DNA of 64,000 bases. Origin: Halorussus rarus. Lineage in GTDB: Archaea; Halobacteriota; Halobacteria; Halobacteriales; Haladaptataceae. Shown in pieces: positions 19,283 through 24,208 of this stretch. The notes beneath the pieces are model-generated. The model ran no database searches and had not been told where the DNA came from. It saw only the letters and a program-made list of their open reading frames with translations. The stretch spans positions 372,001 through 436,000 of the forward strand of contig NZ_QPMJ01000003.1 in assembly GCF_003369835.1 (NCBI RefSeq), in the 5' to 3' direction. Position 1 is the first letter of the stretch, and every line of letters begins with the position of its first letter. The translations under genes and the position numbers were made by a program.

Positions 19283-20188
19283 CTACTCCTCGCGGCGCGC
19301 GACCTCGTGGCGACCGAACCCGTACCGCAGCCGGTTGGCCAGCCGGCGGGAGAACCGACCGTCCTCGCGGGCCCGGGAGCCGAACCGCTCGCCGAGCGCC
19401 TGGTAGATGAGCGGGACGGGCACCTCGCGTTCCAGCGCCTCCTGGACGGTCCACGTCCCGGTCGACCCGCCGGCGACGTAGTCGTCGACGTCGCCGAGGT
19501 CGGCGCCCTCCTCGCGGAACGCCTCCTCGCAGAGTTCGAGCAGCCACGACCGGATGACCGCGCCGTTGTTCCACGTCCGGGCGACCGTCTCGAGGTCGAG
19601 GTCGTACCGGCCCTCCGCGAGCAGCTCGAACCCCTCTCCGTAGGCCTGCATCAGCGCGTACTCGACGCCGTTGTGGACCATCTTGACGTAGTGCCCCGAC
19701 CCCGCCGGCCCCATCCGGTCGTGGCCCATCGGGCCGGTGGCCACCGCGTCGAAGACGGGAGTCAGCTCCTCGTAGGCCCACTCGGGCCCGCCGACCATCA
19801 GCGAGAAGCCCAGTTCCGCGCCCGCGGGCCCGCCGGAGGTGCCGCAGTCGAGGTACGCCGCCGGGGTCGACTCGGCCCGGCGCACCGAGTCCTCGAAGTG
19901 GGAGTTGCCGCCGTCGACGACGACGTCCTCGTCGGTCAGGCGCGGCTCGAGGTCGTCGAGCGCGGCGTCGACCGCCTCTCCGGCGGGCACCATCAGCCAG
20001 ATGCGCTTCTCGTCGCCCAGTCGCTCGGCGAGGTCGACCACCGAGTCTGCGGGGGTCGCGCCCGCCTCGGCGGCCGACGCGACGGCCTCCTCGTCGAGGT
20101 CGAAGGCCACCACGTCGTGGCCCGCGTCGAGCACCCGGTCGACGACGATGCGGCCCATCCGGCCCAGTCCGATGACGCCCAGTTGCAT
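19283..20188 (-). CDS. gnd: 6-phosphogluconate dehydrogenase, decarboxylating
   Basis: This 301-residue enzyme oxidises 6-phosphogluconate to ribulose 5-phosphate and CO2, the last oxidative step of the pentose phosphate route, which some haloarchaea use to make pentoses. It has the N-terminal Rossmann motif GVIGLGRMG, the substrate loop CGTSGGPAGAELGFSLMVGG, and the catalytic segment GHYVKMVHNGVEYALMQAYGEG with the Lys and Asn of the active site. At about 300 residues it belongs to the short (YqeC/GntZ-like) form rather than the 470-residue enteric form. It starts with ATG at 20188. It is 40 bases downstream of the zinc-ribbon membrane protein gene on the same strand. Confidence 0.95.
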   Translation of the reverse strand: MQLGVIGLGRMGRIVVDRVLDAGHDVVAFDLDEEAVASAAEAGATPADSVVDLAERLGDEKRIWLMVPAGEAVDAALDDLEPRLTDEDVVVDGGNSHFEDSVRRAESTPAAYLDCGTSGGPAGAELGFSLMVGGPEWAYEELTPVFDAVATGPMGHDRMGPAGSGHYVKMVHNGVEYALMQAYGEGFELLAEGRYDLDLETVARTWNNGAVIRSWLLELCEEAFREEGADLGDVDDYVAGGSTGTWTVQEALEREVPVPLIYQALGERFGSRAREDGRFSRRLANRLRYGFGRHEVARREE

Positions 20189-20228
20189 GGGGGAGCATCG
20201 AAGAGCGGGGGAGGTAGGGGTTGCGGTT

Positions 20229-20654
20229 CTACTCGCCCGGCTCCGCCGGTCGCGTCTCGTCGGGCAGGTAGTGCTCGTGCTGGCTGTAGACGTACCAGAC
20301 GAGGACGACTCCGATGGCGGCGCCGACGACCGCCCGGCGGTTGCCGGTGACCGCTCGCAGCAGGTCCGCGAGGACGCCGAGCCCGTACAGTATCAGCGCG
20401 ACGCCCCACGACCACGTCTCGAGGGTCCAGAGCCCGTAGAGTACCGTTAACTGCCCGATACTGAGTCCGGTGACGACGAGTCCGACCAGGGGCGCCGGGC
20501 CGAGCAGGCGGAGTCCGACGAGGAGCAGGAACAGGCCGGACAGTGCCCCGAGCGCGCAGATGATCTTGATACCGGTCGGTGCGGGGTCGGCCGCGCAGTC
20601 CCGGCAGAGTTCGGCCCCCTCGCGAGTGCTCGCGCCGCACTCCTTGCAGGGCAT
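20229..20654 (-). CDS. zinc-ribbon membrane protein
   Basis: This 141-residue protein begins with a short zinc ribbon (CKEC at residues 3-6 and CRDC near 17-20) followed by four hydrophobic helices and a short charged tail. Such proteins are common in haloarchaea and have no known activity. It is divergent from the valS leader, about 100 bases away, and on the same strand as gnd, so the two may be co-transcribed. The start ATG at 20654 places the first Cys pair at the very N-terminus, as in its relatives. Confidence 0.8.
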   Translation of the reverse strand: MPCKECGASTREGAELCRDCAADPAPTGIKIICALGALSGLFLLLVGLRLLGPAPLVGLVVTGLSIGQLTVLYGLWTLETWSWGVALILYGLGVLADLLRAVTGNRRAVVGAAIGVVLVWYVYSQHEHYLPDETRPAEPGE

Positions 20655-20720
20655 GAACAGTTCAACGACGCGATACGACTTCAGGTTACGGGGTGCAAAC
20701 CGCTCCCCGCGCAGACGAGA

Positions 20721-20730
20721 ACCTTTATCA
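20721..20730 (+). promoter_or_regulatory. TATA box of the valS transcript
   Basis: ACCTTTATCA preceded by a GAGAA purine stretch is a typical haloarchaeal BRE/TATA pair. Initiation 26-27 bases downstream falls at 20753-20754, exactly at the first base of a short leader ORF and about 100 bases before valS. Confidence 0.6.
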
Positions 20731-20753
20731 GTACCCGTCCGTTCCTTCCTCGT

Positions 20754-20783
20754 ATGAGGCTGACTGCGTCGGTAGTACGTTGA
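20754..20783 (+). CDS. possible leader peptide upstream of valS (nine codons, two adjacent GTA Val codons)
   Basis: A nine-codon ORF, MRLTASVVR, begins where transcription is predicted to start, so it would be read as a leaderless message. Codons 7 and 8 are both GTA, a Val codon that I did not meet in the valS stretches I read, where GTC and GTG dominate. The stop codon is 69 bases before the valS start. Consecutive rare codons for the cognate amino acid just before a stop are the hallmark of attenuation leaders. That this peptide is made and regulates valS is inference; the ORF is short enough to occur by chance. Confidence 0.4.
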   Translation: MRLTASVVR

Positions 20784-20840
20784 ACTGTCCAGCGCTGCGG
20801 CGCGTCTTTCTCACAGAACTACCCTTCCGACAGAGTCAGC
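20759..20840 (+). promoter_or_regulatory. base-pairing segments in the valS leader
   Basis: GCTGACT (20759-20765, inside the leader ORF) is perfectly complementary to AGTCAGC (20834-20840), close to the valS start. CTGTC (20785-20789) is complementary to GACAG (20829-20833), adjoining it. The two helices can stack, so a ribosome paused at the GTA codons would cover or free the first arm. No U-tract terminator is obvious. Confidence 0.35.
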
Positions 20841-20852
20841 TCTAACGACATT

Positions 20853-23486
20853 ATGACGGACGTTCCCGACAGCTACGACCCGGAGCGAGTCGAACCGAAG
20901 TGGCAGGAGGAGTGGCAGGGCTCCGAGATATACCACCCCGAGGGCGAGCCCGACTACGTCGTCGACACCCCGCCGCCGTACCCGACCGGCAAGCTCCACC
21001 TCGGCCACGCGCTGGGCTGGAGCTACATGGACTTCGCCGCCCGGTTCCACCGGCTGGTCGGCGACGAGGTGCTGTTCCCGCAGGGGTGGGACTGCCACGG
21101 GCTCCCGACCGAGGTGAAGGTCGAGGAGGAGCACGACATCCACCGCACCGAGATCTCCCGCGAGGAGTTCCGCGACCTCTGCGTCGACCTCTCGGAGCGC
21201 CGCATCGACAGCATGAAGGAGACGATGCGGTCGCTCGGGTTCTCCCAGGACTGGGAGGCCGAGTACCGAACGATGGACACTGACTACTGGGAGAAGACCC
21301 AGCGGTCGTTCGTCGAGATGGCGCAGGGCGACGAGGAGGAGAGTTACGTCTACCGCGACGAGCACCCCGTCAACTGGTGCCCGCGCTGCGAGACCGCCAT
21401 CGCCGACGCCGAGGTCGAGAACATCGACCGCGAGGGGACGCTCCACTACGTCACCTTCCCCGGGGTCGACAACGACGACATCGAGATCGCCACGACGCGT
21501 CCCGAACTGCTGGCGGCCTGCGTCGGCATGGCGGTCGACCCCGACGACGAGCGCTACGCCGACCGGGTCGGCGAGACGTTCGAGGTCCCGCTGTTCGGCC
21601 AGGAGGTCGAACTCGTGGCCGACGACGACGTCGACGGCGACTTCGGGACCGGGGCGGTGATGATCTGCACGTTCGGCGACAAGCAGGACGTCGACTGGTG
21701 GGCCGAGCACGACCTCGACCTCCGGCCGGTGTTCACCGAGGACGGCCGGCTCAACGACCTCGCGGGCGAGTACGAGGGTCTGACCGTCGAGGAAGCGAAG
21801 GGAATCATCGCCGACGACCTCGAGGAGGAGGGCTACCTCGAGGACACCGAGCCCACCGAGCAGTCGGTCGGCGCCTGCTGGCGCTGCGACACGCCCATCG
21901 AGATCCTGAGCAAGGAGCAGTGGTTCGTCGAGGTCCGCCAGGACGAGATCTTAGAGAAGGCCCGGGAGGTCGAGTGGATCCCCGAGCACATGTACGACCG
22001 CCTGGAGGACTGGACCGAGGGGATGGAGTGGGACTGGGTCATCTCCCGCCAGCGCGTGTTCGCCACGCCCATCCCGGCGTGGTTCTGCGCGAACGACGAC
22101 TGCGAGCACGTCCACGTCGCGAGCGTCGACGAACTGCCGCTCGACCCCACCGAGCGGGACCCGCAGGTCGGCGAGTGCCCCGAGTGCGGCGGGACCGACT
22201 GGGAGGGCGAGACCGACGTGATGGACACCTGGATGGACTCCTCGATCTCGCCGATGCACGTCCAGGGGTGGCCCGACGGGGAGTTTGCGCCGACGACGCT
22301 CCGCCAGCAGGGCCACGACATCATCCGGACGTGGGCGTTCTACACGCTCCTGCGGGTCACCGCGCTCGAGGACGAGATCCCGTGGGAGCAGGCGCTGGTC
22401 AACGGCATGGTGTTCGGCGAGGACGGCCACAAGATGAGCAAGTCCCGGGGCAACGCGGTCGGCCCCGAGGAGGCCATCGAGGAGTACAGCGCCGACTCGG
22501 TCCGGCAGGCGCTGGCGCTGGGCGGCCAGCCCGGCAGCGACATCCAGTTCCAGTGGAAGGAGGTCACCTCGGCGTCGCGGTTCCTCACCAAGTTCTGGAA
22601 CATCTTCCAGTTCTCGGTCGAGCACTTCGACGAGGACACTCCCGACGTCGAGGCGCCGGCGTACCGCGACGCCGACAGGTGGATCCTCTCGAAGCTCTCG
22701 CGGACCGTCGACGCGGTCGAGGCCGACATGCGCGAGTACCGCTTCGACGCCGCGCTGCGAACCCTCAGGCAGTTCGTCTGGGAGGACCTGGCCGACGACT
22801 ACCTCGAACTCGTGAAGGGTCGGCTCTACGAGGGTCGGCCCGGCGAGCGCAACGCCGCCCGCCACGCCCTCTACACCGCGGTCTCGGCGTCGGTCCGGAT
22901 GCTCGCGCCGTTCTCGCCCCACTTCGCCGACGAGGTGTACAGCTACCTCCCCGGCACCGACGGGAGCGTCCACGCCGCCGCGTGGCCCGACGTCGCGTTC
23001 GAGGGCGACGAGGAGGCCGAGCGCAAGGGCGACCTCATCGCGGCGGTCGCCAGCGAGATCCGGGCCTGGAAGTCCGACGCCGGGATGGCGCTCAACGCCG
23101 ACCTCGACCGCGTCGAGGTGTACTCCGACCAGGGCCGCGGGTGGGACACCTACGACCTGAGCGAGGCGGTCAACGCTCCGGTCTACCCCGAGGAGGGCCG
23201 ACCGAGCGTCGAACTCGTCCCGGTGGGCGTCGACCCCGACCACAGCGTCATCGGCCCGCAGTTCCGCGACAGAGCGGGACAGGTCGTCGCCGCGTTAGAG
23301 TCGGCGGACTTCAACACGCTCAAGAACCAGAAGGAGATCGAGGGCGAGATCACGCTCGAGGTCGACGGCGAGGAGGTCGCCATCGACGGCGACGCCGTCG
23401 AGATCGAGGAGGAGTACCGCGCCGAGAGCGGCGAGGAGGTCGAGGTGCTGGAGACCGACGACGCGACGGTGCTCGTCTTCCCGTAG
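20853..23486 (+). CDS. valS: valyl-tRNA synthetase
   Basis: This 877-residue class Ia synthetase charges tRNA-Val. It has the HIGH motif as HLGH (about residue 49-52, after PPPYPTGKL), the Rossmann core, the CP1 editing domain ([10 protein letters not shown] to KGIIADDL, with the threonine-rich TTRPE segment) and the KMSKS loop in full ([10 protein letters not shown]). Zinc-type Cys pairs occur at CPRC, CWRC and CPEC. The anticodon-binding helical domain follows ([11 protein letters not shown] onward), and the C-terminus lacks the long coiled-coil arm of bacterial enzymes, as usual in archaea. It is preceded by a short ORF and base-pairing segments that may regulate it. Confidence 0.98.
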
Positions 23487-23842
23487 CGTCGCCGGTCGGT
23501 CACGGCCTGCTGTCGCCCCGGCGCAGCGCCGAATTCAGATACGGCGGGAGTTCGATGTCGTTTCGTTTCCGGGGGTGCGACGTCACGGTCCGTTCGTCCG
23601 GCACCGTCGAATCCGAACGGTGCGACGGCAGCGATGCGGAGCGAAACCGCGAGTAGGGATAGCGGAACCTGGGTCGACGATGGCTCCCCCGCCGTTCGTC
23701 TTTCTGCCGACGCAGTACCCGTGGTCCACTCGCGCTCCGTGTCGGCCAGTTCGCGGAAACGATTGGTTCACTCGGTTAATCAATACCCGGGCGGGCGTGA
23801 AAATCTCGTAAGGGTTTCCGTGTCCGGAGGTAAGTACACATC
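23487..23842. other. intergenic stretch with a hairpin and a promoter
   Basis: About 350 bases without a credible gene. It contains a 7 bp inverted repeat GCACCGT/ACGGTGC (23601-23607 and 23617-23623). Near the right end, GGAGGT stands 11 bases before the ATG at 23843 and may serve as a ribosome binding site. Short ORFs here lack protein-like composition. Confidence 0.5.
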
Positions 23843-24208
23843 ATGTCTGACGCTGATTCCGGAGTCGGTGGAAACGAACGCAACGCCGGACCGAACTTCG
23901 ATGCGGCGGACGACTGCACGCTGAACCGGGCGTTCGACCTCCTTCGCGATCAACGGCGGCGCCACGCCCTGAAGACGCTGTACGCGACCGACGAGACGGT
24001 GCTGTCGATCGACGGTCTCGCCGACCGGGTGCTCGACCGGGACCCCGACGCCGTCGACCGCGACACCGTGCTGGTCGGACTCCACCACGACACCCTTCCG
24101 CGATTGGCGGACGCCGGCGTCGTCGACTTCGACTCGCGGACCGAGACCGTCCGGTATCGCGGAAGCGAACTGCTCGACGACGTTCTGACCGTCCTCGACG
24201 AGGAATGA
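23843..24208 (+). CDS. DUF7344-type winged-helix protein
   Basis: This 121-residue protein matches the haloarchaeal domain that begins NRAFDLLRDQRRRHALKTLY (about residues 29-48), a winged-helix-like fold found alone or in larger regulators. The second half (VLVGLHHDTLPRLADAGVVDFDS) fits the wing and its following helix. It has no membrane segment or Cys motif and is probably a small cytoplasmic regulator. Its stop overlaps the ATG of a short downstream frame in an ATGA. DNA-binding is inferred from the fold. Confidence 0.75.
   Translation: MSDADSGVGGNERNAGPNFDAADDCTLNRAFDLLRDQRRRHALKTLYATDETVLSIDGLADRVLDRDPDAVDRDTVLVGLHHDTLPRLADAGVVDFDSRTETVRYRGSELLDDVLTVLDEE

Follow-up and report, generated by a model that had tools for sequence, protein, structure and literature searches.

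A conserved leader ORF with tandem GTA codons upstream of haloarchaeal valS, a probable sensor of aminoacyl-tRNA

A nine-codon uORF with two rare Val codons precedes valS in Halorussus rarus

The window, by which we mean the whole 64,000-nucleotide stretch of Halorussus rarus DNA analysed here, encodes on its + strand a valyl-tRNA synthetase (valS, 20853-23486) of the type labelled VRS1, which scores above cut-off against the NCBIfam models PRK13208 and TIGR00422 (valS) and has its nearest ValRS matches in the genus Halorussus. Upstream of it, on the same strand, lies a predicted leaderless leader-peptide ORF of nine codons (20754-20783; ATG AGG CTG ACT GCG TCG GTA GTA CGT TGA) with the product MRLTASVVR. 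Its seventh and eighth codons, the candidate sensor codons for Val7 (20772-20774, +) and Val8 (20775-20777, +), are both GTA, and a TATA-like box, CTTTATC (20723-20729, +), would set the start of transcription at about the uORF ATG. Re-reading of the sequence confirmed all coordinates of the initial annotation, as well as its description of the TATA box, the ATG at 20754, the ORF, the GTA codons and the valS gene that follows.

GTA had also been described there as rare, and the counts bear this out: it makes up 21 of the 1,384 Val codons (1.5%) in the 34 predicted genes of the window, and none of the 74 in valS. Among the tRNA loci examined (40 of 45), the genome has one gene for tRNA-Val(UAC), beside those for the GAC and CAC isoacceptors. 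Theory places the isoacceptor for a rare codon among the best reporters of starvation, and tRNA-Val(UAC) fits that description.

The uORF and its promoter are conserved across haloarchaea

valS loci were gathered from the GTDB species collection, the genus and the class, and yielded 110 distinct upstream sequences after duplicate removal. The initial annotation had proposed looking for the ORF in related haloarchaea, and had named its absence from close relatives as a refutation; instead, it and its Val codons are kept across the whole class, in 99 of the 110 distinct regions upstream of window-type valS. The 11 without it come from outlying lineages, namely marine Hikarchaeia-like genomes (L060-L063, L065) and genomes of the Halorutilus type (L072, L073, L077, L172), and from two species of Halorarius (L056, L080), whose lack of the element within the class counts against the attenuator reading given below. 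In the other classes of the phylum, readable ValRS loci have no GTAGTA leader, and the valS element therefore looks like something that arose in haloarchaea. A scan of 292 genomes for the pattern GTAGTACG followed by a stop-like triplet was discarded as too loose: it returned about 50 matches per genome, with no clear excess over a reversed control.

The second Val codon is GTA in all 99 leaders and the first in 98 (GCA in the remaining one). GTA is kept even where its neighbours have changed, as in GTAGTACAA (L054), GTAGTATAT (L133) and GTAGTAGGC (L150), and these variants point to the codons themselves as the conserved core. The preceding codon is NCN in 97 leaders, giving a small residue (S, A, P or T) before the two valines, and the following one is CGN, for Arg, in 96. 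Such flanking preferences are what one might see if the peptide itself acted, as an arrest peptide or a small protein, in place of tRNA charging. The remaining residues vary freely, however, and a signal carried by the peptide would tolerate GTC and GTG, yet GTA is nearly invariant.

The codon after GTA GTA is most often CGT, which is rare overall and yet present in 81 of the 99 leaders; this hints at an additional constraint at the nucleotide level. It would also suit a reading in which GTAGTACGT serves as a binding site in DNA or RNA and the ORF around it is there by chance. Against that reading, the ATG stands in frame in every case, six codons before GTA GTA in 82 leaders and five in 14 (18 or 15 nt, 96 of 99 in all), a stop codon follows soon after (TAG in 40, TAA in 30 and TGA in 29 of the leaders) and the spacing of the TATA element is fixed to the ATG: 98 of 99 leaders have the first T of the TATA core 28-31 nt ahead of it. 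A stricter TATA pattern precedes the uORF ATG in 86 of 99 leaders and the valS ATG in none. Because the TATA spacing suits the uORF ATG and not that of valS, transcription most likely starts at the uORF ATG, and one transcript, with its promoter upstream of the uORF, most likely carries both reading frames. In a Haloferax TSS map, 72% of coding transcripts are leaderless in this way (PMC4983044).

Covariation supports a long-range helix between the uORF and the valS start region

Within the uORF, GGCTGACTgcGTCGG (20758-20772, +) is predicted to pair with CCGACagAGTCAGCT (20827-20841, +), joining codons 2-7 to the bases just upstream of valS. The window duplex has an energy of -23.9 kcal/mol (z -3.2 against shuffles). 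Two shorter complementarities between these regions had been singled out in the initial annotation. Both exist, and both are weak in a single sequence: a match like the 7-bp one (20759-20765 with 20834-20840) occurs between the two ends in 5.9% of dinucleotide shuffles, and one like the 5-bp one (20785-20789 with 20829-20833) in 63%. The former is part of the covarying helix, and comparison between species lifts it, like the ORF and its GTA codons, far above chance. The latter found no support and was rejected, being at chance level and competing with the 3' strand of the conserved helix for bases 20829-20833.

The pairing is kept despite sequence change in Halorientalis (CTGATGtcGTCGGTAG/CTACCGACcCATCAG), Halarchaeum (CGTCGCTGTCG/CGACAGCGACG), Natronomonas (CGCG..CCGGTC/GACCGG..CGCG) and Halobacterium (CGTCG..CGCGGT/ACCGCG..CGACG). 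Since MAFFT misaligned the 3' strand across genera, cross-genus covariation was assessed by strand swapping: the energy of each leader's own 5' and 3' strands was compared with that of strands swapped between groups of related leaders, over 20,000 permutations. Own strands paired at -20.6 kcal/mol, against about -16.6 kcal/mol for swapped ones (17 independent groups), with z of about -5.4, -5.4 and -7.1 for 17, 38 and 57 groups; none of the 20,000 permutations reached the observed pairing. In control comparisons (reversed 3' strand, middle region, promoter and start of valS) nothing comparable appeared (z -2.4 to +0.2), and a second hairpin drawn from the codons after GTA GTA had no covariation (z -0.8 to 0.0). 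Each of the columns ahead of the first GTA (-15 to -1) holds two to five pair types across 38 groups. RNAalifold, applied within Halorussus only, recovers the helix from 18 leaders, with little variation within the genus. By these comparisons, the long-range helix is conserved by covariation across the class.

The 5' strand of this helix occupies codons 2-7, where a ribosome on the sensor codons would break it. Between the end of the 3' strand and the valS ATG the median gap is 9 nt, and in the window 11 nt; the AUG of valS is for the most part not included in the helix.

A T-rich tract follows the uORF

The window also has a T-rich pyrimidine tract, TCTTTCTC (20805-20812, +), that resembles haloarchaeal T-stretch terminators and is a weak example, its longest T run being 3. 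Of 38 groups, 32 have a T-rich pyrimidine run no more than 45 nt past the uORF, where shuffling predicts 4.2 +/- 1.8; the run typically sits 27 nt from GTAGTA (median; interquartile range 19-29). Many tracts have only three or four T, and several sit in hairpin loops and not after a stem; some, such as that of L014, are T5C. Haloferax ends transcription between genes mainly at stretches of T closed by a C; in a reporter assay, T5C terminated about 95% of transcripts (PMC7237163). U-tracts of this kind are bound by archaeal aCPSF1 (PMC8716108).

The tract and the helix each suggest a mechanism of their own. In a purely transcriptional one, the tract would be the terminator, a ribosome stalled at GTA GTA would abut RNA polymerase and block termination, and the helix would matter only in the finished mRNA. 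The excess of tracts over expectation and the T5C examples, which match an efficient Haloferax terminator, argue for this, as does the median spacing, which we judge to be about that of the leading edge of a ribosome plus the RNA held by RNA polymerase. It leaves the class-wide covariation of the helix unexplained, however, and the tracts in loops and those with few T fit it poorly. We consider it possible, with more doubt than confidence.

In a purely translational mechanism, similar to that of ermC, the helix would hide the valS start region and the stalled ribosome would open it, with the tract serving as an unstructured spacer or a protein site. The covariation of the helix, the closeness of its 3' strand to the valS ATG and the position of a helix strand where a ribosome at GTA GTA should cover it are consistent with this. 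Against it stand the conservation of the tract well beyond composition, the occurrence of similar GCTTTCTC tracts in trpS2 leaders (described below) and the position of the valS AUG, and we rate it a tentative possibility on a par with the transcriptional one. Because the tract precedes the 3' strand, the helix cannot govern termination at it, which calls for two layers of control or else another logic. The helix favours a translational layer and the tract a transcriptional one, and both can act.

Leaders of other synthetase genes carry cognate codons

Haloarchaea have two ValRS types, about 42% identical and almost mutually exclusive: the window type is found in 71 of 292 genomes and the other, ValRS2, in 222 of 292. 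The genome of the window is unusual in holding both. Its second, divergent ValRS (G000:C2:726002-728296; L124, L175) has a leader of its own, MTAADARPARALAVSPAVKVGGR followed by a stop, with three GTA codons and a GGGGGC/GCCCCC hairpin. In Natrialbaceae and some other families the ValRS2 uORF reads V-(F/R)-V(GTA)-G-A-x-stop. A hairpin comes directly after the last GTA in 31 of the 36 ValRS2 loci examined, and its arms covary (GGGGC/GCCCC, GGGGGC/GCCCCC, GGGCC/GGCCC, GGCCCC/GGGGCC and GCCCC/GGGGC). At two loci (L197, L201) the second ValRS is paired with a VVR-type leader. ValRS2 genes of the Haloferacaceae/Halorubrum type look leaderless and without the uORF.

Several families have pheS leaders whose last residues before the stop are GFGFFFA(R/A) or a close variant; in the window's genome they are GFGFFFAS. 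In a number of these leaders (L333, at G000:C2:1574000-1575100, and L227-L254) a downstream GGCGAAACCG element is complementary to the Phe-codon region. Leaders of trpS2, which encodes a second TrpRS, contain WRW or WRWW, as in MQSAPTCWRWRAPGADSLAFAA and MTTAPWRWWSPLSGADSPAVVVAAA, each followed by a stop, and have their Trp codons inside a hairpin with a GCTTTCTC-like tract downstream. In L281, L282, L325-L331 and L418-L420 these codons fall in the loop of a strong hairpin (for example GTCCGCTCTCCG...CGGAGAGCGGAC), again with a GCTTTCTC-like tract. Some trpS2 uORFs are 23 aa long, among them those of Haloferax mediterranei (MVSTSHANCWRWHAFREVDSIAV, then a stop), H. larsenii and Natronorubrum aibiense. 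At two plasmid trpS2 loci (L421, L422) the flanking hairpin (GTCCACTTCC...GGAAGTGGAC) and a T-rich tract are kept; neither has an ATG-initiated uORF with Trp codons that we could find, and the start may be GTG.

Some of these uORFs may have a counterpart in the H. volcanii TSS map, where Table 2 lists one of 26 aa before pheS and one of 23 aa before a trpS; the entries for these two genes mark no separate main-gene TSS (PMC4983044). The section of that paper on these uORFs gives no codon or regulatory interpretation, and valS is not in the table.

IleRS, LeuRS, MetRS, TyrRS and SerRS loci and most ThrRS loci have no cognate leader, and ProRS loci were resolved too poorly for a call. Two ThrRS loci of Natrialbaceae (L287, L293) share a conserved 13-aa uORF, MVGVRFTGAF(A/P)RF, that is not Thr-rich. 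Upstream of trpC there is no consistent Trp leader, with a W-containing short ORF at one of 14 loci (L374). A near-palindromic, operator-like TGTAC(A)...TGTAC sequence lies over the trpC promoter in many haloarchaea (L364-L377), which suggests a repressor rather than attenuation.

The codons thus match the synthetase at ValRS2 (GTA), PheRS (FGFFF) and TrpRS2 (WRW). Matching codons before every synthetase with a conserved leader, with the one ThrRS exception, would be hard to explain otherwise than by sensing of aminoacyl-tRNA. The same leaders bear on the two readings raised by the flanking codons. ValRS2 leaders keep GTA in contexts other than GTAGTACGT, and the leaders of pheS and trpS2 carry codons for Phe and Trp, leaving a binding motif very improbable. 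The ValRS2, PheRS and TrpRS2 leaders also differ in peptide while carrying cognate codons, and we regard action of the peptide itself as improbable, if a little less so.

A model for control of valS

We consider it highly probable, from comparative sequence evidence, that the valS leader is a ribosome-mediated leader-peptide attenuator that senses aminoacyl-tRNA. The conserved uORF, the covarying helix and the cognate-codon leaders before ValRS2, PheRS and TrpRS2 all support the attenuation-type reading of the initial annotation. Building on the elements that the comparison establishes (the uORF, its codons, the promoter spacing, the helix, the T-rich tract and the cognate leaders elsewhere), we infer stalling of the ribosome, induction by valine limitation, and the direction and level of control, be it transcription, translation or both.

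With the 5' end of the mRNA at the uORF ATG, a ribosome would start there directly. When charged tRNA-Val(UAC) is plentiful, it would clear the two rare GTA codons and leave at the stop; with the ribosome gone, RNA polymerase could terminate at the T-rich tract, and in RNA that is read through, the uORF would pair with the bases before valS and hinder its translation. If charged tRNA-Val(UAC) runs short, the ribosome would instead stall on GTA GTA, covering the 5' strand of the helix and presumably standing directly behind RNA polymerase at the tract. Both the helix and termination would then be suppressed, and valS expressed. Initiation in Haloferax reportedly does not use Shine-Dalgarno sequences, as the title of one paper has it, and any sequestration would therefore concern the stretch ahead of the AUG as a whole.

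More broadly, we think it likely that leaderless, codon-sensing leader peptides (for Val through rare GTA, for Phe and for Trp) form a regulon spanning the haloarchaeal class, in which synthetases are controlled by transcription termination combined with start-site sequestration. To our knowledge, this would be the first ribosome-mediated attenuation in archaea; the largely open-access literature searched on attenuation, leader peptides and uORFs in archaea yielded no such system. The candidates form an old, class-wide set whose specificity is built in: the codons upstream of both ValRS types are for Val, those upstream of PheRS for Phe and those upstream of TrpRS2 for Trp. With them, the coupling of transcription and translation in archaea, leaderless initiation and the charging of individual isoacceptors could be put to direct test in the genetically tractable haloarchaea Haloferax (pheS, trpS2) and Halobacterium (valS), and they may account for the uORFs that the Haloferax TSS map shows upstream of pheS and trpS.

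Comparison with known systems

Textbooks describe ribosome-mediated attenuation as a bacterial mechanism; it relies on the coupling of transcription and translation and is exemplified by E. coli pheST with its leader peptide PheM and by the trp, ilv, leu and thr leaders. The valS leader shares with these a short ORF with repeated cognate codons before a synthetase or biosynthetic gene, an alternative RNA pairing and a terminator-like element. It differs from them in being archaeal, in having a leaderless uORF at the 5' end of the mRNA, in sensing Val, as we propose, through the rare codon GTA, and in having valS as its target; its pairing is a long-range helix to the valS start region where trp has the standard alternative hairpins, and its terminator-like element is a T-rich archaeal one.

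ermC and cat are controlled by translational attenuation, with an antibiotic as the signal. As in those systems, a ribosome stalled on the leader ORF would free a sequestered downstream start region; unlike them, the signal for valS would be uncharged tRNA, no Shine-Dalgarno sequence would be needed and a T-rich tract is also present. T-box riboswitches likewise place synthetase genes under the control of tRNA charging, whereas sensing at valS would go through the codons of a translated uORF. An Rfam scan of 20000-24000 detected no T-box near valS, its one hit being a chance-level miRNA match. An archaeal parallel is found in the pheS and trpS uORFs reported for H. volcanii, which also lie in the 5'-UTRs of synthetase genes (PMC4983044, Table 2), the trpS one having the same 23-aa length as the trpS2 uORF of H. 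mediterranei.
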